A stretch of DNA of 13,004 nt from Methanosarcinaceae archaeon (GTDB lineage Archaea; Halobacteriota; Methanosarcinia; Methanosarcinales; Methanosarcinaceae). Under the pieces are notes generated by a model. That model was not told the DNA's origin. It saw nothing but the letters and a program-made list of their open reading frames with translations, and ran no database searches. The position numbers and the translations under genes were made by a program. Shown one piece after another: positions 212-12,734 of the stretch; the first letter of the stretch is position 1, and each line of letters opens with the position of its first letter. The stretch covers positions 1 to 13,004 of the forward strand of contig DQIO01000278.1 in NCBI GenBank assembly GCA_020793555.1. The letters are read 5' to 3'.

Positions 212-280
212 CGACCAAACATCGTCAATCACATCATCCATGACCAATAACGCAACGCAGATAATCCAATACAGGTGCAC

Positions 281-1138
281 ATGATATTTCCTGATGAATA
301 CAAGAATGTTGGAGTAACCAGCATACATCCGAATGATGCCAAAGGCAACAAAGTATATTTTTTATCGGACTACATAATCTCAGAGCCAAAACTGGATGAT
401 GGCACAATCGGGTATTCACTATACCAAGTAACAAAAAGCGGTAATGGACTCCTGCAAACCGCTGAATCGATCGAAACCATCGCATCCGGTAAACAAATCA
501 TAAAGTACAAAAAAGAACTTAACATTAAAAACCGTTCGCTCTTGATAGAGACTGCATCACAACTCTGCAAAGGAGATGTGAACACCGTCATCTTCACAGG
601 AGTTGACAAGCATGTAACATTCGTACATGCCCCCGACCTGTCAAGCATCATTGAGATCGAGATCGTTGATGTTGTACCGCCCGAACCTTCATGGCTCACA
701 CATGTTGTCAGAAGGCTTGAAACAAGCGGAATCTTCGGTGATTTCGGTGTGCTGTTCAGTGAAAATGTCATAGACCTCAAACAATTCGAAGGTGAAGACA
801 CAGTATTCCCATGCACAGCATCAGGACTCAAGGGTAAGTACCTTGACTCCGACATCATCACAAAAAACGGCTCACTGGTCGTTGGATGCGAGATATCGAG
901 AACCCTGATCGAATCCCGATTTCCCGAACTTGAATACACGCTTGTGAACATTTGTCCATTCAAATCCGATATATTCAAACCCACAAAACCTTTCATAACA
1001 AGATGCTGCCGCTCTGAAAAATCAGGACTTGTCACCATCAATGATGTCGAGGGAGTAGTGGTACACTGGGGTGCGTCCGAATTCGAGGTTGCAGAGGCGA
1101 TAAGGGATCTGGTTTTGCATGTCAAAGAGCAGGGTTGA
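281..1138 (+). CDS. Conserved-looking protein of unknown function between leuD and leuB
   Basis: A soluble-looking protein of about 285 residues without signal peptide or clear membrane segment. I cannot assign a function. From memory it may belong to an archaeal DUF family found beside leuB in methanogens (possibly DUF7714), but I could not check this. Visible features are a PPEPSWL motif near residue 140, a SGLKGKYLDSDII segment near 185, and a Cys pair (RCCRSEKSG) near 245. No nucleotide-binding or metal motif is obvious. The start is uncertain. GTG at 275 gives two extra residues (M-H-) but has no ribosome binding site; ATG at 281 follows AGGTG (273-277), with a short 3-base gap. The frame is closed upstream by TAA at 248-250. 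The 69-base gap from leuD and shared strand suggest co-transcription, so a role tied to leucine or 2-oxoacid metabolism is possible but inferred only from position. Confidence 0.8.
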   Translation: MIFPDEYKNVGVTSIHPNDAKGNKVYFLSDYIISEPKLDDGTIGYSLYQVTKSGNGLLQTAESIETIASGKQIIKYKKELNIKNRSLLIETASQLCKGDVNTVIFTGVDKHVTFVHAPDLSSIIEIEIVDVVPPEPSWLTHVVRRLETSGIFGDFGVLFSENVIDLKQFEGEDTVFPCTASGLKGKYLDSDIITKNGSLVVGCEISRTLIESRFPELEYTLVNICPFKSDIFKPTKPFITRCCRSEKSGLVTINDVEGVVVHWGASEFEVAEAIRDLVLHVKEQG

Positions 1139-2831: not shown

Positions 2832-4487
2832 TCAACTTATACCAAGCAGTGATGCAACACCTGATGTCGTGACCACTGCAGCCACTCCCGATATCCAAAC
2901 CATTATCACAAAATCGGTTGTTGCGCTAAGCATATTGCCACCATCAACAACACGTATCAAAATAGCTGACAGTAATGAATGTGCGATCATAATAAACAAC
3001 ACCATGAGTGACAACGTCTCAATGCTCCCAACATCGGTATAAATTACCATACCCATCGACATTCCAGACGGCATATCCACACTTGAGAACATACTCTGCA
3101 TCAAGTCCAAAACACCAAGCGAGATATACATCGTAAATCCAATTCCACCGGTTAGACCATACAGCACACCGACCAGACTTGATGCTGATTGATATCGCTT
3201 TTTTCTAAGGGTCACAATCCGGTGAAAATTTGTAGCAATAATATCCCCAATGACTTCCGGTTTACCGCCAAGGTGTGTTGCTTCAACAAACATAACGCTA
3301 AAACGCTGGATAAGATTGCTGCCTGTGCTCGCTGCAAAAAGATGCCATGACTCAATTTTGTCAATCCTTGTTGATAATCTTCTATACAAATTATTCACAT
3401 CATGTGTCAGTGGTCCAAAATCGTGTGCACGCAACGCTTTGAGTGCCTCATCCACCAGACCACCCCGTGCACCGGCAGAACTTCCAAGTGAACGGATGAA
3501 CGAAGGAAAATTCTCATCCCTGCGCCTGATACCTTTCTCTATTTTTTTTGCAATATAACCTGTATAAACAAGAGGTGTAAAAACCATTGCAACCGCAATT
3601 GGAACTTCGATCTCGCCATAAAGATAAACAATAATCCCCACAACCAGACATCCTACAAGGGATATGGGGATCGAACGGTTCAACTTCAATTGATCATCTG
3701 TCATTATTCCTGTTTGTTGCCATATTGGATCCATTGGGACCTTGCTTTTTGCAAATACCACCATGACCAAATCTGTAGCAATAAATGTAGCAACAACAAT
3801 ACTCATAAGCAAAATTGCATCCATACCGGTAATAACCGGCATAATAACTGCAAAAGATGCCAAAAATATAAGAGACATGACCATCGATACAAATAATTCC
3901 TTGATCATCTCAATAGCATAAAGAGAACCTTCGTACATGGATTCGTATTCATTCATCACAACATTTTGCTCAGCACTCAAAAAATCATTAACATCCTCAC
4001 CAGACTGCAAACCATGTGCAAACCTGTCAAGAAAATCCTCATAAAGAATGGATGGTGTACGTTTTGATATGAACTTGCAGGCTTCTGCAAGACTCATGTT
4101 CCACACAGTTACCAGATTATAGATCTTTATAGTCTCTTCTGCAAGTCGCTTGTAATCTTTGTTTTCCGAAACTATCCTGATAATATCCAGTCTTGGTGTT
4201 TGTGCTGTTGCTATTGCACCCATTTGTGTGATATAATAGTGCATATTATTGTCAATTTCTGCAGCTTTGCCATCTGCAATTGATATCGGATAATATACAG
4301 CAAATAGGATACAAATTACCGGAAGCAGTGCAGGTATGTACTGAGTAGGACCAACAAAAAGTGTAGGGAGTAATGCATATAAAATAAACGAAAAGACAAA
4401 ACCAAAAACAATAACAGGTATTGCAAATCGTTTTATGTAAGACATCGGCTCCATATCAATGCTATGAAATGCCTTTTCGTAATTCAT
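2832..4487 (-). CDS. arlJ: Archaellum assembly platform membrane protein ArlJ (FlaJ)
   Basis: ArlJ is the polytopic membrane platform of the archaellum, homologous to type IV pilus PilC/GspF proteins, on which the ATPase ArlI acts. It is 551 residues, as expected for FlaJ. Hydrophobic segments lie near residues 22-45, 50-70, 198-220, 223-246, 273-291 and 293-313, with about three more in the last 130 residues. Between them are two GspF-like cytoplasmic regions, about 80-195 and 318-430; the second includes basic RRRDENFPSFIRSLG and a GARGGLVDEALKALR helix. The ATG is preceded by AAGGTGATC, a near-perfect archaeal ribosome binding site, which overlaps the arlI stop codon. The 11-base spacing to arlI indicates translational coupling in one operon. 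It is the last gene of the operon, followed by a hairpin. Confidence 0.95.
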   Translation of the reverse strand: MNYEKAFHSIDMEPMSYIKRFAIPVIVFGFVFSFILYALLPTLFVGPTQYIPALLPVICILFAVYYPISIADGKAAEIDNNMHYYITQMGAIATAQTPRLDIIRIVSENKDYKRLAEETIKIYNLVTVWNMSLAEACKFISKRTPSILYEDFLDRFAHGLQSGEDVNDFLSAEQNVVMNEYESMYEGSLYAIEMIKELFVSMVMSLIFLASFAVIMPVITGMDAILLMSIVVATFIATDLVMVVFAKSKVPMDPIWQQTGIMTDDQLKLNRSIPISLVGCLVVGIIVYLYGEIEVPIAVAMVFTPLVYTGYIAKKIEKGIRRRDENFPSFIRSLGSSAGARGGLVDEALKALRAHDFGPLTHDVNNLYRRLSTRIDKIESWHLFAASTGSNLIQRFSVMFVEATHLGGKPEVIGDIIATNFHRIVTLRKKRYQSASSLVGVLYGLTGGIGFTMYISLGVLDLMQSMFSSVDMPSGMSMGMVIYTDVGSIETLSLMVLFIMIAHSLLSAILIRVVDGGNMLSATTDFVIMVWISGVAAVVTTSGVASLLGIS

Positions 4488-4498
4488 ATATGATCACC

Positions 4499-6151
4499 TT
4501 ATACAGCGAATGGCAACCCATCGACACCATGTCGATAGAAATTCACCAGGATGTCATTCACTTCGTAATAATCATCAATACCACGTGAACGCATCTCTTC
4601 CAATATCCTTGAACGTAAGAACATATCCTCGTATATCGTCCGTTTGTCCTCATATCCCAATTTTGTAGCGATCTTGTCTTCAAGAATGAAACTGTTGTTC
4701 AAACCCCTGAATGCGTGCGTATCCGTTTCAGGATCCCACTGGAATACCGCCCTTGTGACCACACCGCCGGCTTCTTCATAATATCCTTCGATCTCATCAA
4801 TTGAGATGCATCGCCTAAGGAACTGTCCTTTTCGATAAACTGCCTGCAATATCATACCAACATTAAGATTATCGATAAAAGTCACAGGAACATTGATCGG
4901 GTCACCAGTTAAACGCTGGATCATCTTTGTTATTGCCGATGCGTGGAATGTGGCCAAAACAGGGTGTCCTGTCTGCATACCCTGGAATGCTACCGCTCCT
5001 TCAACACCTCGAATCTCACCAACAATGATATAGTTTGGTCTTGAACGCAACGCCGCCTTAAGCAACGTAAATGTATCTACTCTTGAATCAGGGGGACCGT
5101 CTTCACGGGTGATCAACTGTTGCCATACAGCCTGTGGCGGCTGAACCTCAGCCGTATCTTCAGTGGTATAAATTTTTGATTTTGGATTCACAAAAGACAG
5201 ACATGCATTCAACATTGTTGTTTTACCGCTTGCCGTCTCACCACTAAAGAATATACTCATACCATTTTCAAGTAACATCCACATGTAAGCTGCCATATCA
5301 CAATTAAAAGCACCCCAGTTAATAAGCTGAATAACACTCACAGGTACTTCACTGAATTTACGCATCGTGAAACTGCTTCCACGCCGACTGATATCGGGAC
5401 TGTAAATAATGTTAATACGTGAACCATCAGGCAATGCACCATCAGCAATAGGCTTTGCATCACTTACAGGACGACCGATTCGCTCACTCATACTGCGAAG
5501 CCATTGATCAAGTCCTGCCTCATCACCAAAAGAAAGATCTGTTTCCGTCATGCCCAATATCTTGTGAACAATGAACACACCACTGACACCTATACTGTGG
5601 ATATCTTCGAGATACGGGTCTCGGATGATGGGTTCTATAGGTCCCGATCCAATAATATTTCGCTCAATGTAATACAGTATTTTGTTGTACTCTAACTGAT
5701 CAAGTGGTACAATTTTTTGTTTAGGAATAAACTTCTGCACAAATCCCTGTTTTTCGTTTTCATCCGGAAGATCCCCACCGACACCGACATCAACCGATTC
5801 ATTAAGCAATTTTATGATCAGGTTCTTGAGTCCCTCTTCCCCTTCCGGGACCGGCTCTCTTGAAGATTTTTCAAGTATTTCACTCATAATTAGATCATAT
5901 TTTCTTTTTTCATTCGGAGTGAGTTTTGGTTCAATGGTATAATAAAAAGCTTCACCCAGTTCTGCTGTACCATAAAGGTGAATAAATACCGGATCTCCTA
6001 CAGGAAGAATTAGATTGACATTCTCCACTTCAAGATCTTTCGACAACTTCACAACAAATTCAGGAGTTGATCCTGTCTTTTGCCTGAACTCATTTATGTA
6101 GACTCCAAGGTGCGGATTTCTTTGCAGTGCTTTTTGGAATTCGGGGTCCAT
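4499..6151 (-). CDS. arlI: Archaellum motor ATPase ArlI (FlaI)
   Basis: This is the hexameric secretion-type ATPase that drives both assembly and rotation of the archaellum, on the cytoplasmic face beneath ArlJ. It has 550 residues. The N-terminal half is the variable FlaI domain. The C-terminal RecA-like domain has Walker A GETASGKT at 304-311, an Asp/Glu region (YTTEDTAE, 328-335), Walker B NYIIVGEIRG (373-382) and the His box TGHPVLATFHAS (394-405). All catalytic motifs are intact. Three arginine-containing segments (SERIGRP, PDGSRINI, SFTMRKF) match those seen in the FlaI/GspE family. The ATG follows GGAAGGT about nine bases upstream. It lies 25 bases after arlH and 11 bases before arlJ. 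A type IV pilus ATPase is the alternative, but the flanking arlH, arlG and arlJ genes settle the assignment. Confidence 0.97.
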   Translation of the reverse strand: MDPEFQKALQRNPHLGVYINEFRQKTGSTPEFVVKLSKDLEVENVNLILPVGDPVFIHLYGTAELGEAFYYTIEPKLTPNEKRKYDLIMSEILEKSSREPVPEGEEGLKNLIIKLLNESVDVGVGGDLPDENEKQGFVQKFIPKQKIVPLDQLEYNKILYYIERNIIGSGPIEPIIRDPYLEDIHSIGVSGVFIVHKILGMTETDLSFGDEAGLDQWLRSMSERIGRPVSDAKPIADGALPDGSRINIIYSPDISRRGSSFTMRKFSEVPVSVIQLINWGAFNCDMAAYMWMLLENGMSIFFSGETASGKTTMLNACLSFVNPKSKIYTTEDTAEVQPPQAVWQQLITREDGPPDSRVDTFTLLKAALRSRPNYIIVGEIRGVEGAVAFQGMQTGHPVLATFHASAITKMIQRLTGDPINVPVTFIDNLNVGMILQAVYRKGQFLRRCISIDEIEGYYEEAGGVVTRAVFQWDPETDTHAFRGLNNSFILEDKIATKLGYEDKRTIYEDMFLRSRILEEMRSRGIDDYYEVNDILVNFYRHGVDGLPFAV

Positions 6152-6176
6152 ATTATACTACCTTCCAATTTTGTGT

Positions 6177-6872
6177 TTAACCGACCGCTGCAATCTCTAC
6201 AACAAGACCAACCTTTGGCTCGATCCTAAATCCTATCATCTGTCCCACAGGACCCTTGGCTCCTGTGAACTTATTCACAATAACTGTACGTTTGACCTCG
6301 TTAGCCATTGGTTTTACTTTCAAGCTTATGTAAATCTCACATGAAGAGCGAAACATAGAAGTTACATCTTCACTTAGCTGGCTAGGCTCGACAGTCAAAA
6401 TTATGATCTTTCCCATTCCATTCAGTTTTTTGAAAAATGAGATCAGATCAAGACTTTTTTCATTGTCCACACTGTATTTTATTAGCGAGGAAATTGTATC
6501 AATGATAATAATATCATTTTCGAACAATTCCTGTGCAGTCATCAGACGTTCGATGAAATCGATCCTTGATTTTGCAGCTTGAACTAAGGGAATAACAGGA
6601 ATGAAAAGCAAACTTCCGTTTAATAAATAAGGAGCAATTGGATAATCAAGCGAATACATTTGGTTTATGAATCCTTTTGTTGTCTGCTGTGTTGATATGA
6701 ACGTTACACTGTGTTCGTTCTCCAACAATCCAAAGATCATACGCTGACATATCGTACTTTTCCCAGCACCGCTACCTCCTTCCATGACCACTAAAGAGCC
6801 AGTAGGGAAACCACCTCCAAGTTTGCGGTTAAATTCATCTCGGGGAATCTCAAAGGAACTAACGTTAACCAC
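6177..6872 (-). CDS. arlH: Archaellum regulatory ATP-binding protein ArlH (FlaH)
   Basis: ArlH is a RecA/KaiC-like ATP-binding protein that forms a ring with ArlI inside the archaellum motor; its nucleotide state is thought to control the switch between assembly and rotation. The protein is 231 residues, one KaiC-like domain. Walker A is GGSGAGKST at about 32-40 and the Walker B-like strand is DIIIIDTISSL (120-130), with D125 followed by Thr, not Glu. That is consistent with the weak or absent ATPase activity reported for FlaH. GTG is the start: AGAGGT lies seven bases upstream, and the translation begins MVNVSSFEIPRDEFNRKLGGG, the usual FlaH N-terminus. Spacing is 27 bases from arlG and 25 to arlI. 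Confidence 0.95.
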   Translation of the reverse strand: MVNVSSFEIPRDEFNRKLGGGFPTGSLVVMEGGSGAGKSTICQRMIFGLLENEHSVTFISTQQTTKGFINQMYSLDYPIAPYLLNGSLLFIPVIPLVQAAKSRIDFIERLMTAQELFENDIIIIDTISSLIKYSVDNEKSLDLISFFKKLNGMGKIIILTVEPSQLSEDVTSMFRSSCEIYISLKVKPMANEVKRTVIVNKFTGAKGPVGQMIGFRIEPKVGLVVEIAAVG

Positions 6873-6899
6873 TGTGACTACCTCTTTTTATCATTTTTT

Positions 6900-7379
6900 T
6901 CATGTTTTAAATCTCATCGAATCGGACTTACCATTTTCTGTGACCACACAAACACTGTGATCACCTGGACTCAATGGGCTTGTCGTTACGTTTATAGCAA
7001 GAACATCCCCAGGTCTCCATATCACATACCCATCCAATACAACTGCATTCATATTTTCCGGTGGAATCAGTATACCATCCAGAACAAGATTTACATAATC
7101 AATGTTCAACTCGGATTTCCCCGTATTCTTGGCATAAAACGTATAATATTCACTATTCCACGGTACCATGTCTGGATCATTGATTATCGTAATGTCAGTC
7201 CTCAACTGGTCTGATATAACTTTACTGCTTGCAGATGTTGCCCCTGATATAGATTGGACATTCACTGACAAAACAGAAACAACGCCCATTGCCAATACAA
7301 TCGCAACTATGAAGAATATCATGTGAGTTATGGCAGTTTCGGCCTGTTCATTTTTATAAATTGAGCGTGAGAATAACAT
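6900..7379 (-). CDS. arlG: Archaellum stator protein ArlG (FlaG)
   Basis: ArlG and ArlF are pseudoperiplasmic proteins, each anchored by one N-terminal helix, that link the rotating archaellum motor to the S-layer as a stator. This 159-residue protein has a cytoplasmic start with charged KNEQAETAITH, one hydrophobic segment (about 20-40) and an extracellular beta-rich domain. The AITHMIFFIVAIVLA motif is characteristic of FlaG. The C-terminus HSVCVVTENGKSD closely resembles that of the neighbouring ArlF (HRVKVVTENGVSD), which fits a shared fold. The ATG is preceded by AGGT about eight bases upstream; this AGGT sits in an 8-base motif that is tandemly doubled. The gap of 147 bases to arlF is the longest inside the operon. 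Confidence 0.88.
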   Translation of the reverse strand: MLFSRSIYKNEQAETAITHMIFFIVAIVLAMGVVSVLSVNVQSISGATSASSKVISDQLRTDITIINDPDMVPWNSEYYTFYAKNTGKSELNIDYVNLVLDGILIPPENMNAVVLDGYVIWRPGDVLAINVTTSPLSPGDHSVCVVTENGKSDSMRFKT

Positions 7380-7383
7380 TGTC

Positions 7384-7399
7384 AGACCTGTAGACCTGT
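7384..7399 (-). promoter_or_regulatory. Tandemly doubled ribosome-binding-site motif before arlG
   Basis: AGACCTGT occurs twice back to back (7384-7391 and 7392-7399). Read on the - strand this is ACAGGTCT twice, placing two AGGT cores about 8 and 16 bases before the arlG ATG. The nearer core is at normal spacing for translation initiation. The second may be a neutral duplication or may change initiation efficiency. Confidence 0.6.
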
Positions 7400-7401
7400 T
7401 A

Positions 7402-7436
7402 ATTATATTAGATTACATTACATTACATTACATTAT
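7402..7436 (-). repeat. Pentanucleotide array upstream of arlG, four perfect and three variant units
   Basis: On the + strand the units read ATTAT, ATTAG, four times ATTAC (7412-7431), then ATTAT. In the sense of arlG they are NTAAT units (GTAAT, CTAAT, ATAAT). The array ends 22 bases before the arlG start codon. It resembles the CTAAT array before leuB in period, core sequence, orientation and position. Slippage could change the length of the arlG leader. Confidence 0.85.
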
Positions 7437-7488
7437 GTAAATGATTGATATAAAGTTGATTGTTTTAATTTTTAAATATTATTTTATT

Positions 7489-7499
7489 GTATATATATT
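7489..7499 (-). promoter_or_regulatory. Possible TATA box for an internal promoter before arlG
   Basis: On the - strand the sequence AATATATATAC lies between arlF and arlG. An archaeal start site about 25 bases downstream would give a leader of about 85 bases containing the pentanucleotide array and the doubled ribosome binding site. The whole gap is AT-rich, so a match by chance is quite possible. Confidence 0.3.
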
Positions 7500-7526
7500 G
7501 TTAAACAGCTCCGATTCAAATTCGAA

Positions 7527-7961
7527 TTAACTCACAGTGTATGTATCATAATCTGACACACCATTCTCTGTTACTACTTTAACCCTGTGTGAGCCTGCAC
7601 CTGAAAGCCCTGTTACACTTAGTGTTTTTATCTCATCAGGCGTCCACGTTATCGTAGTCGGTAAAAAAGTACATGATTGTATTGTACCATCAATTAAAAT
7701 GTCCAATTCATCTGACCTTAAAGTTTCACTTCCCGTATTTGAGATGGATACTGTAAGATCATATGATGTGGAAGAACCCGTAGGATTTGAATAATCTATC
7801 AAAATGTCGGTCTGCAAACGTTTGATCTGCATCTCATTTTTCTCATAGGATGCATCATCCACAATGTCTTCTGAAGCACTTATTACTACATAGGATGTTG
7901 TTCCAAGAATCATTGCCGATAAAAAGAAAATCGCAACAACAACAGTGGTTTCAAATCCCAT
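7527..7961 (-). CDS. arlF: Archaellum stator protein ArlF (FlaF)
   Basis: ArlF binds S-layer protein and, with ArlG, forms the stationary outer part of the archaellum motor. The protein is 144 residues: MGFETTVVVAIFFLSAMILG opens with a very short cytoplasmic tip and one hydrophobic helix (about 6-27). A charged stretch (KNEMQIKRLQTDILI) follows, then a beta-sandwich domain rich in Ser, Thr and Asp. This start and length match FlaF. The ATG overlaps the last 11 bases of arlCDE, and its ribosome binding site AGAGG lies within that gene, pointing to coupled translation. It could be confused with ArlG, but gene order (CDE-F-G-H-I-J, as in other Euryarchaeota) supports ArlF. Confidence 0.85.
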   Translation of the reverse strand: MGFETTVVVAIFFLSAMILGTTSYVVISASEDIVDDASYEKNEMQIKRLQTDILIDYSNPTGSSTSYDLTVSISNTGSETLRSDELDILIDGTIQSCTFLPTTITWTPDEIKTLSVTGLSGAGSHRVKVVTENGVSDYDTYTVS

Positions 7962-9186
7962 ACAATTCCTCTAAACCGTGCTTGACTTTTGACATTTCCC
8001 GATCAATTGTGCTTAGCATGTTCTTGTCGATCTTACGTCCACATAGCCTCTCTATAAACAGGAGAGATTTTGTGTGATCTTCAGGAAGCAGTCTCCATGT
8101 CGGTTTTTCAACATAGTAGTCTATGCCCCGTGCATAAGCCATTATTTTAAAACGTACATCTTCACTGATCCACCCAATATCTACATAGTAGTCAAGTGCA
8201 TCCATGAGATTGTTCCTTCCGACACGTTCCATCAAAAATTCGATCCAGTTAAGCAATACAACAACACTCATCGGGTCACCTTTTATGGAATCCAGACGTA
8301 CGATAGGATAACCGTCTTTTGTTTTGATTTCGGTAACATTGTCTTGTACGGAATTTTTTTTATCTTCCTCTTCATTTTCCGAAGACTCCACGACTGCTTT
8401 TTGTGCCATCTTTGAAAAGTCGGTCTTTTCCAGATCATCTACCCTTGTCGAAATATTGCTTGTGGTCTCTGCCAGATCGACAATGTTCTGATCAAATTGT
8501 TCGGTTCTTTGAGATAGTTCATCTGTTTTTGAGGACATGGTTTCTATGCTTTCGTGCAGAATCACCATTGCATCTGCAAATGCATCGATCTTTGTCTCAA
8601 TGTCACTAATCTTTACATCGGTTTCTGGGGATACCTCTGGCATTTCAGTACGCTGTGACAAAACATCAAGTTCGTTCTTTAACATGACTGCCATATCACC
8701 AAACTCGGTCATGCGCGTTTCCACTTTTTCAAAACGCTCAATATTCTCGCGTCCATTTTCGGCTTCGCCAACAAATGGATTTACCTGATTTGAAACAATT
8801 TCATAAAGAGACAGGAGTTCAAGTACACTCTGGTCGATCTTCTCAACCGTCTTCTTGACTTCTTCGCTTTCCCGCTGTACCATTGATATGTTTACATCAA
8901 CTTTCGACAGTCTGCCTTCAATCTCACTGATCTTTTTGGCATTCTCTTCTGCCATCTGATTATTAGCTGGTTCACTTGCCTGCCCCGTAGGCGAACTCAT
9001 ACCAGGTGGACCTCCACCCATATCAGGCGGACCACCTGCCGTTAAATCGGGAACTCCGCCCATACCTGGTGGACCCTCACCAAATGGTGAAGGTTCTGCG
9101 GCAAATGGTGGCGCTCCCCCACCATTGTTACCTTTTTTACTGAATGCCCCAGTCAACTTCTTTAGTTTATCAGCAATCCCAGACAT
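7951..9186 (-). CDS. Fused archaellum cytosolic ring/switch protein ArlC-ArlD/E (FlaC-FlaD/E)
   Basis: ArlC, ArlD and ArlE form a cytosolic ring around the archaellum motor and link it, through adaptor CheF, to chemotaxis signals. Here one 411-residue protein combines these parts. Residues 1-18 form a possible amphipathic helix (MSGIADKLKKLTGAFSKK). Residues 20-75 are a Pro/Gly/Met-rich disordered linker with GGPPDM and GGPPGM units. Residues 78-260 are a long coiled coil that contains the FlaC hallmark LYEIVSNQVNPFV (128-139). An acidic hinge (SSENEEEDKK) leads to a C-terminal FlaD/E domain (about 290-400) with YPIVRLDSIKGDP, VVLLNWIEFLMERVG and LDYYVDIGWIS. The ATG has a weak AGTGA site five bases upstream. 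It is the first archaellum gene of the operon and overlaps arlF by 11 bases. Confidence 0.9.
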   Translation of the reverse strand: MSGIADKLKKLTGAFSKKGNNGGGAPPFAAEPSPFGEGPPGMGGVPDLTAGGPPDMGGGPPGMSSPTGQASEPANNQMAEENAKKISEIEGRLSKVDVNISMVQRESEEVKKTVEKIDQSVLELLSLYEIVSNQVNPFVGEAENGRENIERFEKVETRMTEFGDMAVMLKNELDVLSQRTEMPEVSPETDVKISDIETKIDAFADAMVILHESIETMSSKTDELSQRTEQFDQNIVDLAETTSNISTRVDDLEKTDFSKMAQKAVVESSENEEEDKKNSVQDNVTEIKTKDGYPIVRLDSIKGDPMSVVVLLNWIEFLMERVGRNNLMDALDYYVDIGWISEDVRFKIMAYARGIDYYVEKPTWRLLPEDHTKSLLFIERLCGRKIDKNMLSTIDREMSKVKHGLEELYGI

Positions 9187-9295: not shown

Positions 9296-9892
9296 TTATA
9301 AATACTGTCCATGGACATATGGGAATTTTGAATGTTTTCTATTGTCAATCAAGCTGCCAAATGATACTAACACAAACATTAAACCTGTGTACACCAGGAC
9401 AACTAGAAGTGGAGAAGGCACCCCATATCCAAAAATGACAAAATCATAGATACGCATAAGGTTTGCAATTGTTGCCATAATTCCACCAAGTCCTAATGCA
9501 ACCAAAAAACCATTTGTCATCCAATACATGGGATTATTTGAAATTTTTTCAATACTAAGTACTATTGACAAAAGTGTAAGTGTTATCCACAACTTGAAAA
9601 TAATCAGACCTATCCAACCCTGCGTTTCAACAATGTGACGTGCAAATGGATTTGCTTCTGACAATATTCCACAAACATTCATCATATATGCACCTGTAAA
9701 TCCATCCCCAATTCCAAAAGTAAAAAAAACTAATGATGCAAGCAAGAATTGAATCTTTTGTTTGCTATTGAACTTGAAAATACTTTTTTTATTGTTTGAT
9801 CTGACAATATATGACAATATTTGGAAAATACTGATATTAGCACGTTCACAGGTCGCAGTTTTTTGTTCCACATTTACATTACAGTCACTCAT
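9296..9892 (-). CDS. DUF5658-like integral membrane protein of unknown function
   Basis: A 198-residue protein with a hydrophilic N-terminus of about 45 residues and roughly four hydrophobic segments (48-70, 92-114, 124-146, 151-182). Landmarks are FGIGDGFTGAYMM near the first membrane segment, SEANPFARHIVETQGW after it, and FKLW in the second. The G-D-x-x-T plus E-x-NP pattern recalls the DUF5658 family of small archaeal and bacterial membrane proteins; I infer this from memory. ATG 9892 is chosen because GAGGG lies about seven bases upstream; ATG 9928 (12 more residues) has no such site. It lies on the same strand, directly before the archaellum genes, where an archaellin gene might be expected. 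It is not an archaellin: it has four membrane segments and no prepilin-like cleavage motif. Confidence 0.75.
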   Translation of the reverse strand: MSDCNVNVEQKTATCERANISIFQILSYIVRSNNKKSIFKFNSKQKIQFLLASLVFFTFGIGDGFTGAYMMNVCGILSEANPFARHIVETQGWIGLIIFKLWITLTLLSIVLSIEKISNNPMYWMTNGFLVALGLGGIMATIANLMRIYDFVIFGYGVPSPLLVVLVYTGLMFVLVSFGSLIDNRKHSKFPYVHGQYL

Positions 9893-9928
9893 GATTAAGC
9901 CCTCATAAATTGCCGATAAATTGTTCAT

Positions 9929-10390: not shown

Positions 10391-10420
10391 GAAAAAAAAA
10401 GAAAGTAAAACTTACTTTCT
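10391..10420 (-). terminator. Hairpin plus T-tract terminator of the cytochrome gene, including its stop codon
   Basis: On the - strand AGAAAGTAA, loop GTT, TTACTTTCT form a perfect 9-base stem (10400-10408 with 10412-10420), followed at once by nine T (10392-10400, the first shared with the stem). The left half of the stem includes the last codons and TAA stop of the cytochrome gene. A second T-run (about 13 T) follows some 45 bases later on that strand. T-tracts are sufficient terminators in Archaea, so this is a strong candidate. Confidence 0.8.
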
Positions 10421-11371
10421 TCTACTTACAAGATAAAGAGCTGCAATTGCTCCGATTGCAGATATAATTCCAAATCCTGGCACAGATGCATCCTCTTCTG
10501 ATTCAGTCTGTGCTGGCTCATCTGGTTCTGTTGTTGTTGGTTCTGTTATTGTTGGTTCTGTTGTTGTTGGTTCTGTTGTTACAGGTGCATCAGCTGGTTG
10601 TGAACCCGAGAAGTATGAATTCGGGTGACATGCACTACATTTCATATCATCTTTTGACTTTACACCAACAATTTCATATGAGTGAAGATCATCGACTTGG
10701 TGACATCTTACACACTCCGGAACAATGATTATTTCATCATCCATGTGACATGCTACACATGTTACATCTGGAATGTGAATGTTGTGCGGTACCTGAGATG
10801 CAGAAACATTACCATCTCCGGGTCTGTGACAGTTATAACATGCCTGCTCGTCTGTCTCATTTCCGTGAACAGATGCCACATTATCATTTACGTGACATGC
10901 TTGGCACACAATATCCATGTCTGCAGTTTTAACGGGTTTCACAACATCAGGAGCCGTGCTGTGACATTTCGTACAACTTTCAATTTCGCCACCGTGATCC
11001 ATAATCAGGTCCCTGTGGCAGTGTGCACATACGCTTTCTGCAAGAGCACTGTTGTGTACACTTTCAAGTCCCTGGTGACAATAGGAACAATCTTCTGTCA
11101 CTACTTTGCCTATGTGAACCTCATGTATTGGTCCATTGTGACAATTTTCACATTGCGGAATTGCAATCGAAAGTGTCTCACCATGGCAAGCCACACATGT
11201 CACTGGTCTTCCAGCGTGTATTGTGTGAGGATTTGCGGCGTGACATGCAGACGTACAATCCACATCCATCGCATCCAAAGTGGTGACTGAAAAGCCCTCC
11301 TCTGCAGATGCAGGAATCGCTAACATAGCAACAAGAAGTGCTATCAGCGAAATAAATATCAGTTTTCTCAT
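10412..11371 (-). CDS. Secreted multihaem c-type cytochrome with PGF-CTERM surface anchor (10 CXXCH plus one CX3CH)
   Basis: Probable surface electron-transfer protein of 319 residues. Residues 1-24 are a signal peptide (MRKLIFISLIALLVAMLAIPASA). Ten canonical haem motifs begin at C59, C74, C95, C115, C133, C156, C178, C205, C220 and C245; the first cysteine motif, C39-TSA-C43-H44, is CX3CH and may bind an eleventh haem. Other scattered His residues (for example HTIH, HEVH, HNIH) can serve as distal ligands. Residues 264-283 form a Thr/Glu/Pro repeat, probably a glycosylated wall-spanning stalk. It ends VPGFGIISAIGAIAALYLVSRRK (PGF at 298-300), a PGF-CTERM signal for archaeosortase processing and lipid anchoring. 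The family resembles cytochrome c3/NrfH-like multihaem proteins. GAGGT eight bases upstream supports the ATG. Partner and substrate are unknown; a role in extracellular or membrane electron transfer is inference. Confidence 0.92.
   Translation of the reverse strand: MRKLIFISLIALLVAMLAIPASAEEGFSVTTLDAMDVDCTSACHAANPHTIHAGRPVTCVACHGETLSIAIPQCENCHNGPIHEVHIGKVVTEDCSYCHQGLESVHNSALAESVCAHCHRDLIMDHGGEIESCTKCHSTAPDVVKPVKTADMDIVCQACHVNDNVASVHGNETDEQACYNCHRPGDGNVSASQVPHNIHIPDVTCVACHMDDEIIIVPECVRCHQVDDLHSYEIVGVKSKDDMKCSACHPNSYFSGSQPADAPVTTEPTTTEPTITEPTTTEPDEPAQTESEEDASVPGFGIISAIGAIAALYLVSRRK
10524..10583 (-). repeat. Four 15-base tandem repeats coding the Thr/Glu/Pro stalk
   Basis: GGTTCTGTTGTTGTT occurs four times in tandem (10524, 10539, 10554, 10569), the second with one change and the fourth ending in ACA. 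On the coding strand each unit gives a five-residue T-T-E-P-T-type repeat. Because the period is a multiple of three, copy-number changes would keep the frame and vary the stalk length of the cytochrome. Confidence 0.9.
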
Positions 11372-11471
11372 TTTAAATACCTCTCTGATTTAACATATTG
11401 AATAATGTGATAGTGAGTAACACAATCATATTTTACTTTTTCCATATTAATAGGCGGATTTTTTAATACAG

Positions 11472-11620: not shown

Positions 11621-11680
11621 GATTGCGATTTTAACCTCTTGACGAAAGGATGATTTTAAATTGATTGAAACAGTGTAATT

Positions 11681-11687
11681 GGTGATC
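11681..11687 (+). promoter_or_regulatory. GGTGATC ribosome binding site that decides the methyltransferase start
   Basis: GGTGATC matches the archaeal 16S anti-Shine-Dalgarno core fully. It sits three bases before TTG 11691. The other possible starts, TTG 11679 and GTG 11682, lie upstream of or inside this site, so they are less likely. No in-frame ATG occurs near the beginning of the gene. Confidence 0.65.
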
Positions 11688-11690
11688 AAT

Positions 11691-12734
11691 TTGTCACGTA
11701 AAAAGAATTTTGAAAAAACCCTATATTCCGATAAAGATGGAATACGATTCGCAACACCAAAGATTGTTGCACAATATCGAGCAAAACGTTTAAAGTGCAA
11801 ACGACTAGCTGACATCAGTTGCGGCATTGGTGGACAAACGATATTCTTTGCAAAAGAATGTGATTTTGTCTATGCTGTGGAGATAGATCCAAAAAAAATC
11901 GAATACGCAAAGAAAAACTGCGAACTTCACGATATTGATAATGTCGAATTCATCTGTGGAGATGCACTGTCACCAGAGGTAATTGAGCAGATCCCAAAAG
12001 TAGATGTTGTGTTCTCAGATCCTTCCAGACCTGCCAAAGAAAATAAACGCAAAGTGATAAGTCTTGAACCTGGAATTCCAAAAGTCATATCTGCGTACTC
12101 CGATAAAACCCATAACTTTGCATTTGAAGCACCGCCCCAGATGCCACCAAAACGCATTCAATTTGATTGTGAGCGCGAATATTTGTCCCTAAATGGACAA
12201 CTCAATCGCTTGACATTATATTTTGGAGAACTGAAACAATGCGAGCGCTCAGCCATATCACTGCCGGATGGTGCACATATCAATTCAACTGATGCAACAG
12301 GTAAAAATTGTGGAACTTATGACATAACAGAAGTGTCACAACTAAGAACGTATGCATACGAACCTGACCCATCTTTGGTTAAATCAGATCTTCTGTCCCA
12401 GTTTGTAAAATCCACCGAAAATAAAATGGATGACATAAAACATGTTGAGCTATTTACAATCGATAAAAAAAGATTGCTCCTCACATCTGATACAATATTG
12501 AAAAACCCAATGCTGAAAAACAATTATTTGGTCATGCAAGTTACTGAATTTAAACCAGAGGTCATAAATTCAACATTAAAAAAGCATGATGTGGGTAAAG
12601 TTGTACTCAGAGCAGGAGTTGACCCTGCCGACTACTGGACCATAAGAAATGAAATTGAAAATGGGTTAAGTGGCAAAAAAACCATACACCTTTTTGTAAA
12701 GGATAGAACTGCAATACTCTGTGAGATTATATAA
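11691..12734 (+). CDS. Class I SAM-dependent methyltransferase, THUMP-like family
   Basis: Probable S-adenosylmethionine-dependent methyltransferase of 347 residues. Residues 20-115 hold a Rossmann-type core: motif I ADISCGIGGQTIFFA (40-54), acidic YAVEIDP (61-67), CGDAL (89-93) and motif IV VDVVFSDPSRPAK (104-116). The DPSR motif followed by basic residues and LEPG recalls the DPARR of methyltransferases with a C-terminal THUMP-like domain (about 260-347 here, including VVLRAGVDPADYW). THUMP domains bind RNA, so an RNA substrate is plausible, but the family's reaction is not known to me. The core is intact. TTG is taken as start on the basis of GGTGATC; the frame is closed by TAA at 11676. 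It is transcribed away from the cytochrome gene, with about 320 bases between starts, and has no operon partner in the window. A protein methyltransferase is a less likely alternative. Confidence 0.82.
   Translation: MSRKKNFEKTLYSDKDGIRFATPKIVAQYRAKRLKCKRLADISCGIGGQTIFFAKECDFVYAVEIDPKKIEYAKKNCELHDIDNVEFICGDALSPEVIEQIPKVDVVFSDPSRPAKENKRKVISLEPGIPKVISAYSDKTHNFAFEAPPQMPPKRIQFDCEREYLSLNGQLNRLTLYFGELKQCERSAISLPDGAHINSTDATGKNCGTYDITEVSQLRTYAYEPDPSLVKSDLLSQFVKSTENKMDDIKHVELFTIDKKRLLLTSDTILKNPMLKNNYLVMQVTEFKPEVINSTLKKHDVGKVVLRAGVDPADYWTIRNEIENGLSGKKTIHLFVKDRTAILCEII

Follow-up and report, generated by a model that had tools for sequence, protein, structure and literature searches.

How electrons travel outward from methanophenazine in the ANME-3 archaea is an open point, and the survey in PMC9012536 reported no Mco, the methanophenazine:cytochrome c oxidoreductase, in this group. 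The window analysed here, a whole stretch of 13,004 nucleotides, gives this question a concrete form, as it encodes a multihaem cytochrome c beside a set of archaellum genes. What would such a protein carry electrons between, and does its position next to a motility locus reveal anything about its function?

The host can be identified with near certainty as the methanotroph ANME-3 sp. HMMV2 (Ca. Methanovorans). Its assembly (G000) comprises 2,557,143 bases in 334 contigs with a completeness of 92.7, and the genomes searched include a congener, ANME-3 HMMV (DQIP01000226.1). A first-pass annotation of this DNA had spoken of methanogens. The ANME-3 matches, combined with the distribution of the methanol methyltransferase MtaB, which was found in 25 of the 28 other Methanosarcinaceae and in none of the seven ANME-3 genomes, the host included, lead us to infer a methanotroph instead. 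Among the 60 genomes compared, family f1 is Methanosarcinaceae, in which genus g1 is ANME-3 and g12 a second genus; f2 and f3 probably correspond to ANME-2a/b and ANME-2c, judging by named contigs, f5 is perhaps Methanoperedenaceae, and the 28 other f1 genomes are regarded as methanogens from their kinship and MtaB.

Architecture, haem sites and membrane anchor

The features of the window are listed below; the signal peptide, the stalk and the Shine-Dalgarno-like element are sequence readings.

2832..9186, minus strand: archaellum genes ArlC/E, ArlF, ArlG, ArlH, ArlI and ArlJ; neighbours, not assigned to the cytochrome system
9296..9928, minus strand: DUF5658-like membrane protein (23.1 bits against a Pfam cut-off of 25.2); not assigned to the cytochrome system
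10412..11371, minus strand: eleven-haem cytochrome c gene, 319 residues; homologous to the ANME-2a/b cytochrome that adjoins a VhtC-like cytochrome b
10415..10480, minus strand: C-terminal anchor of the PGF type, residues 298-319 (PGF followed by a hydrophobic stretch and RRK); below the TIGR04126 cut-off
10487..10612, minus strand: Thr/Pro/Glu-rich stalk, approximately residues 254-295
10622..11257, minus strand: haem domain, residues 39-250, with ten CXXCH motifs, one CX3CH and eleven further conserved histidines
11240..11257, minus strand: haem site 1, CTSACH (CX3CH), residues 39-44; CXXCH in many homologues
11303..11371, minus strand: likely signal peptide, residues 1-23 (MRKLIFISLIALLVAMLAIPASA)
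11380..11385, minus strand: Shine-Dalgarno-like GAGAGG, 9-14 bases 5′ of the cytochrome ATG
11679..12734, plus strand: divergent methyltransferase, which adjoins archaellum genes in several methanogens

The first-pass annotation had described a 319-residue multihaem reading frame at 10412..11371, without giving a strand. The frame is confirmed and lies on the minus strand. Its ten CXXCH motifs are likewise present, and the loosely stated total of 10-11 haems can be fixed at eleven sites, the last being contributed by the CX3CH. All 22 cysteines of the protein fall inside these eleven motifs, which cannot be put down to chance, since 2000 shuffles of the residues produced a mean of 0.1 and a maximum of 3 CXXCH. 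Pfam models scoring above cut-off are Cytochrom_c3_2, Cytochrome_C7, Cytochrom_CIII and Paired_CXXCH_1, and no S-layer domain reached its cut-off in the family-model searches. The signal peptide and the Thr/Pro stalk noted at first pass also hold up as predictions. The former is a hydrophobic N-terminal stretch ending at ASA/EE, modelled as a helix at residues 2-18 (mean pLDDT 81 for residues 1-10 and 63 for residues 11-20), and the latter has a pLDDT below 50. The two AlphaFold models, computed without haem, are poor overall (mean pLDDT 43 and 54, pTM 0.22 and 0.35), and a fold search of the PDB with the better of them returned a single meaningless hit (E 8.9).

Besides the proximal ligands, eleven further histidines (window residues 49, 52, 83, 86, 106, 117, 126, 169, 196, 199 and 230) are invariant in a 67-row alignment, together with every haem cysteine and proximal histidine, and are also invariant in two further alignments of the family. 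Their number equals that of the haem sites, one ligand per haem; H117 lies inside the CAHCH of haem site 5, and conserved pairs are spaced HxxH three times. The conservation of these eleven residues makes it likely that the protein carries eleven bis-His haems, as predicted from the alignments.

All 46 locus-derived members have eleven haem sites in the mature protein, once an extra motif in L032 and L033, found only where the called reading frame extends further upstream, is set aside; L061 has one cysteine outside the haem motifs. Site 1 is CX3CH in six of six main ANME-3 rows and in eight of the 13 rows linked to McoA, the VhtC-like cytochrome b of Mco, with CXXCH as its alternative form in the family. 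As for the 71 database proteins, 63 show eleven CXXCH/CX3CH sites, five more (P0062-P0066) reach eleven through a CX4CH at site 3, and three do not. Two earlier family alignments took 59 and 61 of these 71 proteins, and the ones they omitted include each of the eight that fall short of eleven CXXCH/CX3CH sites; a 72-row alignment of all 71 plus the window protein includes them. There, the 33 haem-site and histidine positions are intact in 69 of the 72 rows, the exceptions being P0002, with one proximal histidine replaced, and P0061 and P0070, in which internal gaps delete one haem site plus one or two further histidines.

These counts bear on whether the protein is a catalytic multihaem enzyme, for example a nitrite, sulfite or metal reductase. 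Sequence scans of the PDB match NrfB, NrfA, NrfH, high-molecular-weight cytochrome c, MtrC and others, so NrfA-type chains do occur among the distant profile matches. The similarity nevertheless spans only parts of the haem domain, the window protein has no CXXCK, and spare conserved histidines equal to the haem sites in number leave no obvious open site; we regard a catalytic function as very improbable.

At its C-terminus the protein ends in a tail of the PGF type (PGFGIISAIGAIAALYLVSRRK). The PGF-CTERM assignment made at first pass is thus right in kind, although the 35-residue tail narrowly misses the TIGR04126 cut-off (20.9 bits against 24.5). The Heimdall-CTERM model scores 25.7 bits on the tail, above its cut-off of 24, and 20.0 on the whole protein; PF18204 does not match the tail. 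Most family members share P-G-(F/Y) followed by a hydrophobic stretch and a basic end, and P298 and G299 are conserved in the family alignment. The proposed archaeosortase anchor fares less evenly. ArtA scores above cut-off in 55 of the 60 genomes, including four of the six congeners (G001, G002, G004 and G006), but not in congeners G003 (a fragment) and G005, nor in the 93%-complete window assembly. The window genome does possess an archaeosortase gene, that for archaeosortase B (TIGR04144; L123:5876-6457), which is also its sole, weak match in the ArtA scan; a lack of any archaeosortase, which the first-pass annotation named as refuting the anchor, is therefore not what the genome shows. Attachment of the cytochrome by ArtA is plausible, and an ordinary transmembrane helix at the C-terminus would result in an identical topology.

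The tail also weighs against a second alternative, namely that the protein polymerises into an extracellular filament like OmcS, OmcZ or the archaeal cytochrome nanowires. Its many haems, predicted export and three HxxH pairs would all suit a filament. However, most members whose C-terminus is complete end in a hydrophobic anchor, which fits attachment better than release, and the PDB sequence scans match no chain named for OmcS, OmcZ or nanowires. Lacking sequence support in those scans, the nanowire reading was rejected and is, in our estimation, distinctly unlikely.

Relatives, phylogeny and the Mco cytochrome

A search for the same architecture in Methanosarcinales, recommended by the first-pass annotation, was productive. 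At E 0.001, matches occur in 30 of the 60 genomes, eight of them through stalk and tail only, so that haem-domain homologues are found in 22, the host included in both counts. They are present in six of seven ANME-3 genomes (the one without is 60% complete), both g12 genomes, all six ANME-2a/b genomes, all six ANME-2c genomes (the G045 copy being cut by a contig end) and two of the five f5 genomes, and absent from six f4 genomes and the 28 other Methanosarcinaceae. A scan of named records yielded 39 loci, 38 of them from Methanosarcinaceae, Methanosarcinales or ANME-2 records and one a distant gammaproteobacterial protein with 25% identity. In a phylum-wide scan of 392 drawn genomes, which at E 1e-15 and five candidates scored per genome could miss distant relatives, six genomes including the host have a homologue, all in the same order as the window genome.

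A tree of 46 rows separates two groups of interest. One clade (99/97) unites the 13 McoA-linked proteins and contains no ANME-3 rows; the ANME-3 and g12 proteins make up another (100/99; eight rows). The g12 genomes (L036 and L038; Zod_Metabat MAGs), which are 75-76% complete, place the cytochrome beside the same methyltransferase as the window does, yield no MtaB match and encode a divergent (34-35%) Rnf-type cytochrome b. They may represent another lineage of the ANME-3 kind, whose name points to Zodletone spring as its origin.

What, then, is the relationship to Mco? PMC9012536 describes Mco as a pair in ANME-2a/b, consisting of a VhtC-like cytochrome b and a cytochrome with 7-11 haems, places the ANME-2c homologue of the cytochrome at a different genomic site, and reports ANME-3 to be without Mco homologues; the name McoB does not occur in its main text. 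In our data, all six ANME-2a/b genomes encode, ahead of the cytochrome and in the same orientation, a VhtC-type cytochrome b at a distance of 115-171 bases as judged from match coordinates. Ten of eleven named loci of the same type likewise have it directly upstream, and the eleventh starts at a contig end. The one upstream cytochrome b tested contains PF01292. It is through the text description in PMC9012536 that we identify this pair with the published Mco. The window cytochrome falls within the described range of 7-11 haem motifs and is homologous to the Mco cytochrome along the protein, with 44-49% identity (41-43% by tblastn). The architecture is not a new one.

The cytochrome b half is another matter. 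No VhtC-like cytochrome b (McoA) was found in the seven ANME-3 assemblies, which are 60-98% complete, or in the two g12 genomes. It occurs in five of the six ANME-2c genomes, on contigs other than that of the cytochrome, and weaker, VhtC-like matches exist in 12 of the 28 other f1 genomes. In the window genome, the sole PF01292 match is the Rnf-linked cytochrome b. We do not count the window protein as part of an Mco complex, as no McoA was found in the ANME-3 assemblies and the protein falls outside the McoA-linked clade, and because the clades are separate, the protein is best called a homologue of the Mco cytochrome and not a demonstrated orthologue. Our data thus agree with the published absence of Mco as far as the cytochrome b is concerned, but the cytochrome half does have a homologue in ANME-3. 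Small anchored ANME cytochromes, C-terminal helices in ANME-3 cytochromes and Mco itself have been in print before. We met no statement in the literature examined, supplements aside, that ANME-3 has an Mco-type cytochrome without the cytochrome b, and the same holds for the pattern of eleven plus eleven histidines and for the explanation of the archaellum neighbourhood given below.

Gene neighbourhoods

Could the cytochrome work with the archaellum, for instance by forming a conductive sheath or by acting as a redox sensor for motility? It lies 1.2 kb upstream of the archaellum genes on the same strand, and this order is kept at five of six ANME-3/g12 loci with downstream sequence (at L033 only ArlC/E is on the contig). 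Yet the two part company in both directions. ANME-3 HMMV retains the cytochrome without archaellum genes at the locus, and a search of its genome, 94% complete, finds no ArlI at E 1e-120. At that threshold ArlI is also missing from all six ANME-2a/b genomes, each of which encodes a homologue of the cytochrome, and is found in four of seven ANME-3 and one of two g12 genomes. Conversely, four methanogen loci have archaellum genes and no cytochrome. A functional link was rejected on synteny and co-occurrence, and we consider it scarcely credible.

The same four methanogens show how the neighbourhood may have come about. In G009, G019, G031 and G033, the methyltransferase and ArlC/E start 155-176 bp apart, ArlC/E-F-G-H-I-J follow, and the 9.5-10 kb fetched from each locus contains no cytochrome match; by coordinates, such proximity occurs in seven of the 28 genomes, of which these four were fetched. 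At L035 and L036 the cytochrome sits inside this gap, in the window it does so along with the DUF5658-like reading frame, and at L034, L037 and L038 it also adjoins the methyltransferase. At L032 and L033, the upstream position is taken not by the methyltransferase but by a gene of the inositol-phosphate-synthase type (Pfam was applied to L032 only). The DUF5658-like frame, which lies between the cytochrome and the archaellum genes, belongs to a cluster found at three of the 39 loci (the window, L032 and L033). The archaellum neighbourhood is thus a site of gene insertion, or of retention while others lost the gene, and not a sign of shared function. The caution at first pass that the proximity might be coincidental seems apt on synteny and co-occurrence, and the neighbourhood is a poor clue to what the cytochrome does.

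Several other features of these loci may be recorded. At the ANME-3 HMMV locus (L124), the archaellum genes are missing and the other flanks are kept. Window positions 275-1138 encode a DUF7714 protein and positions 1740-2750 an isopropylmalate/isohomocitrate dehydrogenase-type protein, relatives of which likewise come after the locus in L032, L036 and L037. The 13-kb contig shows no recognisable archaellin gene.

The surroundings of the relatives also bear on function. Two ANME-3 genomes (G002 and G005) have a second paralogue with 44% identity; none was found in the window genome at E 0.001. At L101 (positions 9953-17533), where one such paralogue lies, a Psr/Phs-like set of NrfD-like, Fe-S and molybdopterin genes begins 2.3 kb downstream, beyond two intervening genes, and two multihaem proteins are encoded upstream, one with nine haems and the other with 15 haems and an N-terminal NapC/NirT domain. 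L102 has reading frames of sizes matching the L101 set (families run on L101 only), and at L108 an ANME-2a paralogue points away from a similar NrfD/Fe-S/molybdopterin set. Such repeated proximity to membrane oxidoreductases of the quinol type supports a role for the family as first extracytoplasmic electron acceptor. Against it stand the many ANME-2c copies that adjoin RNA-polymerase or NIF3-type genes, and the homologue at an f5 locus (L103:122-4926), which is divergent from genes for HemL, porphobilinogen deaminase, tetrapyrrole methylase and HemD.

The window genome itself offers two candidate partners. One is an Rnf cluster with a cytochrome b and MmcA. This cytochrome b is 66-100% identical in six of seven ANME-3 genomes (35% in G002); in all six ANME-2a/b genomes the best match has 46-53% identity, both g12 genomes have 34-35%, all five f5 genomes approximately 30% and two of six f4 genomes 29-34%, and it was not found in the ANME-2c or the 28 other f1 genomes. 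The other is a NapC/NirT-type 15-haem protein (G000:C271; 70% identity) in an uninterrupted 375-codon frame. Near full-length matches to this kind of protein are present in G000, G002, G005 and three ANME-2a/b genomes and absent from the 28 other Methanosarcinaceae. These 15-CXXCH proteins, 375-384 residues long, map to L136:2575-3699 in the host genome and L101:7858-9012. The window genome also has four matches to Cytochrom_C_asm (haem attachment).

Proposed role and comparison with known systems

Taken together, the evidence favours a reading that we consider probable: the window cytochrome would be an exported, membrane-anchored relay with eleven bis-His haems that operates in the space separating the cytoplasmic membrane from the S-layer, between methanophenazine oxidation and the outer cytochromes of ANME-3. 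Haem loading, location, direction of electron flow and partners are the parts of it that we infer. Reduced methanophenazine would be oxidised at the cytoplasmic membrane by the Rnf cytochrome b/MmcA or by the NapC/NirT-type 15-haem protein, electrons would pass from this membrane partner into the eleven-haem chain, and the stalk may let the haem domain reach the larger outer cytochromes, from which electrons would leave the cell. Given that McoA was not found in ANME-3, the cytochrome most likely takes its electrons from another methanophenazine oxidase. The exported multihaem electron carrier proposed at first pass is supported, with membrane anchoring probable.

Several points argue against the relay. 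At the ANME-3 loci no electron-donor gene is adjacent, and function may have diverged in proteins that fall outside the McoA-linked clade. Conserved neighbours in ANME-2c are not redox membrane proteins, and those of the f5 locus belong to haem biosynthesis. The Rnf-type cytochrome b is not confined to genomes carrying the cytochrome, with weak matches (29-34%) in f4 and f5 genomes that have none. Finally, ArtA and the PGF-CTERM model both stay below cut-off in the host, and three of the 71 database homologues are without a haem site or a proximal histidine.

Some of these points suit a protein with no dedicated partner, which might store electrons in its many haems as a capacitor or simply be a small, redundant cytochrome in the pseudoperiplasm. 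In favour of this are the lack of adjacent redox genes at the main ANME-3 loci and of conserved ones at the ANME-2c loci, along with the many small cytochromes that PMC9012536 reports in ANME. Against this, the cytochrome is 72-89% identical in the five congeners having a copy, and its relatives stand repeatedly near membrane oxidoreductase genes, both of which point to a defined place in a chain; we judge a store or redundant carrier unlikely.

Within the relay reading, a more specific proposition is that the chain is modular, with one carrier family fed by a VhtC-like cytochrome b in ANME-2a/b and by another methanophenazine oxidase in ANME-3, either the Rnf cytochrome b with MmcA or the NapC/NirT-type 15-haem protein. 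This we put forward tentatively, as possible but rather doubtful. If true, such a swap would make good the reported lack of Mco in ANME-3, and g12 would add a terrestrial lineage wired in a similar way. Even by itself, a cytochrome half without its cytochrome b supplies a concrete, testable component together with two candidate donors.

How does this protein compare with the cytochromes already known? Like the window protein, the seven-haem, Rnf-linked MmcA is an exported multihaem cytochrome of Methanosarcinaceae encoded in the same genome, where it is recognised by TIGR04314. The distinction drawn at first pass between the two is well founded: the window gene lies outside the Rnf cluster, the TIGR04314 model does not match its product, and the best BLASTP segment between them scores 21 bits at E 0.057, no meaningful similarity. 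The ANME proteins MHC-A/B are likewise exported and multihaem, but are exceptionally large, with 20 and 80 haem sites and S-layer domains (PMC9012536), as opposed to eleven sites and no such domain above cut-off here; the same source reports very large cytochromes in ANME-3, including a mixed MHC-B/MHC-C type in HMMV2. Closer in general architecture are the small anchored ANME cytochromes with PGF-CTERM tails or a C-terminal helix, for which PMC9012536 names no gene in the part concerned, and C-terminal helices are also described for ANME-3 cytochromes in PMC8470020. The closest known counterpart is the Mco cytochrome of ANME-2a/b, which shares the eleven haem sites and the PGF-type tail, and differs in belonging to a separate clade and in adjoining the VhtC-like cytochrome b that the seven ANME-3 assemblies lack.
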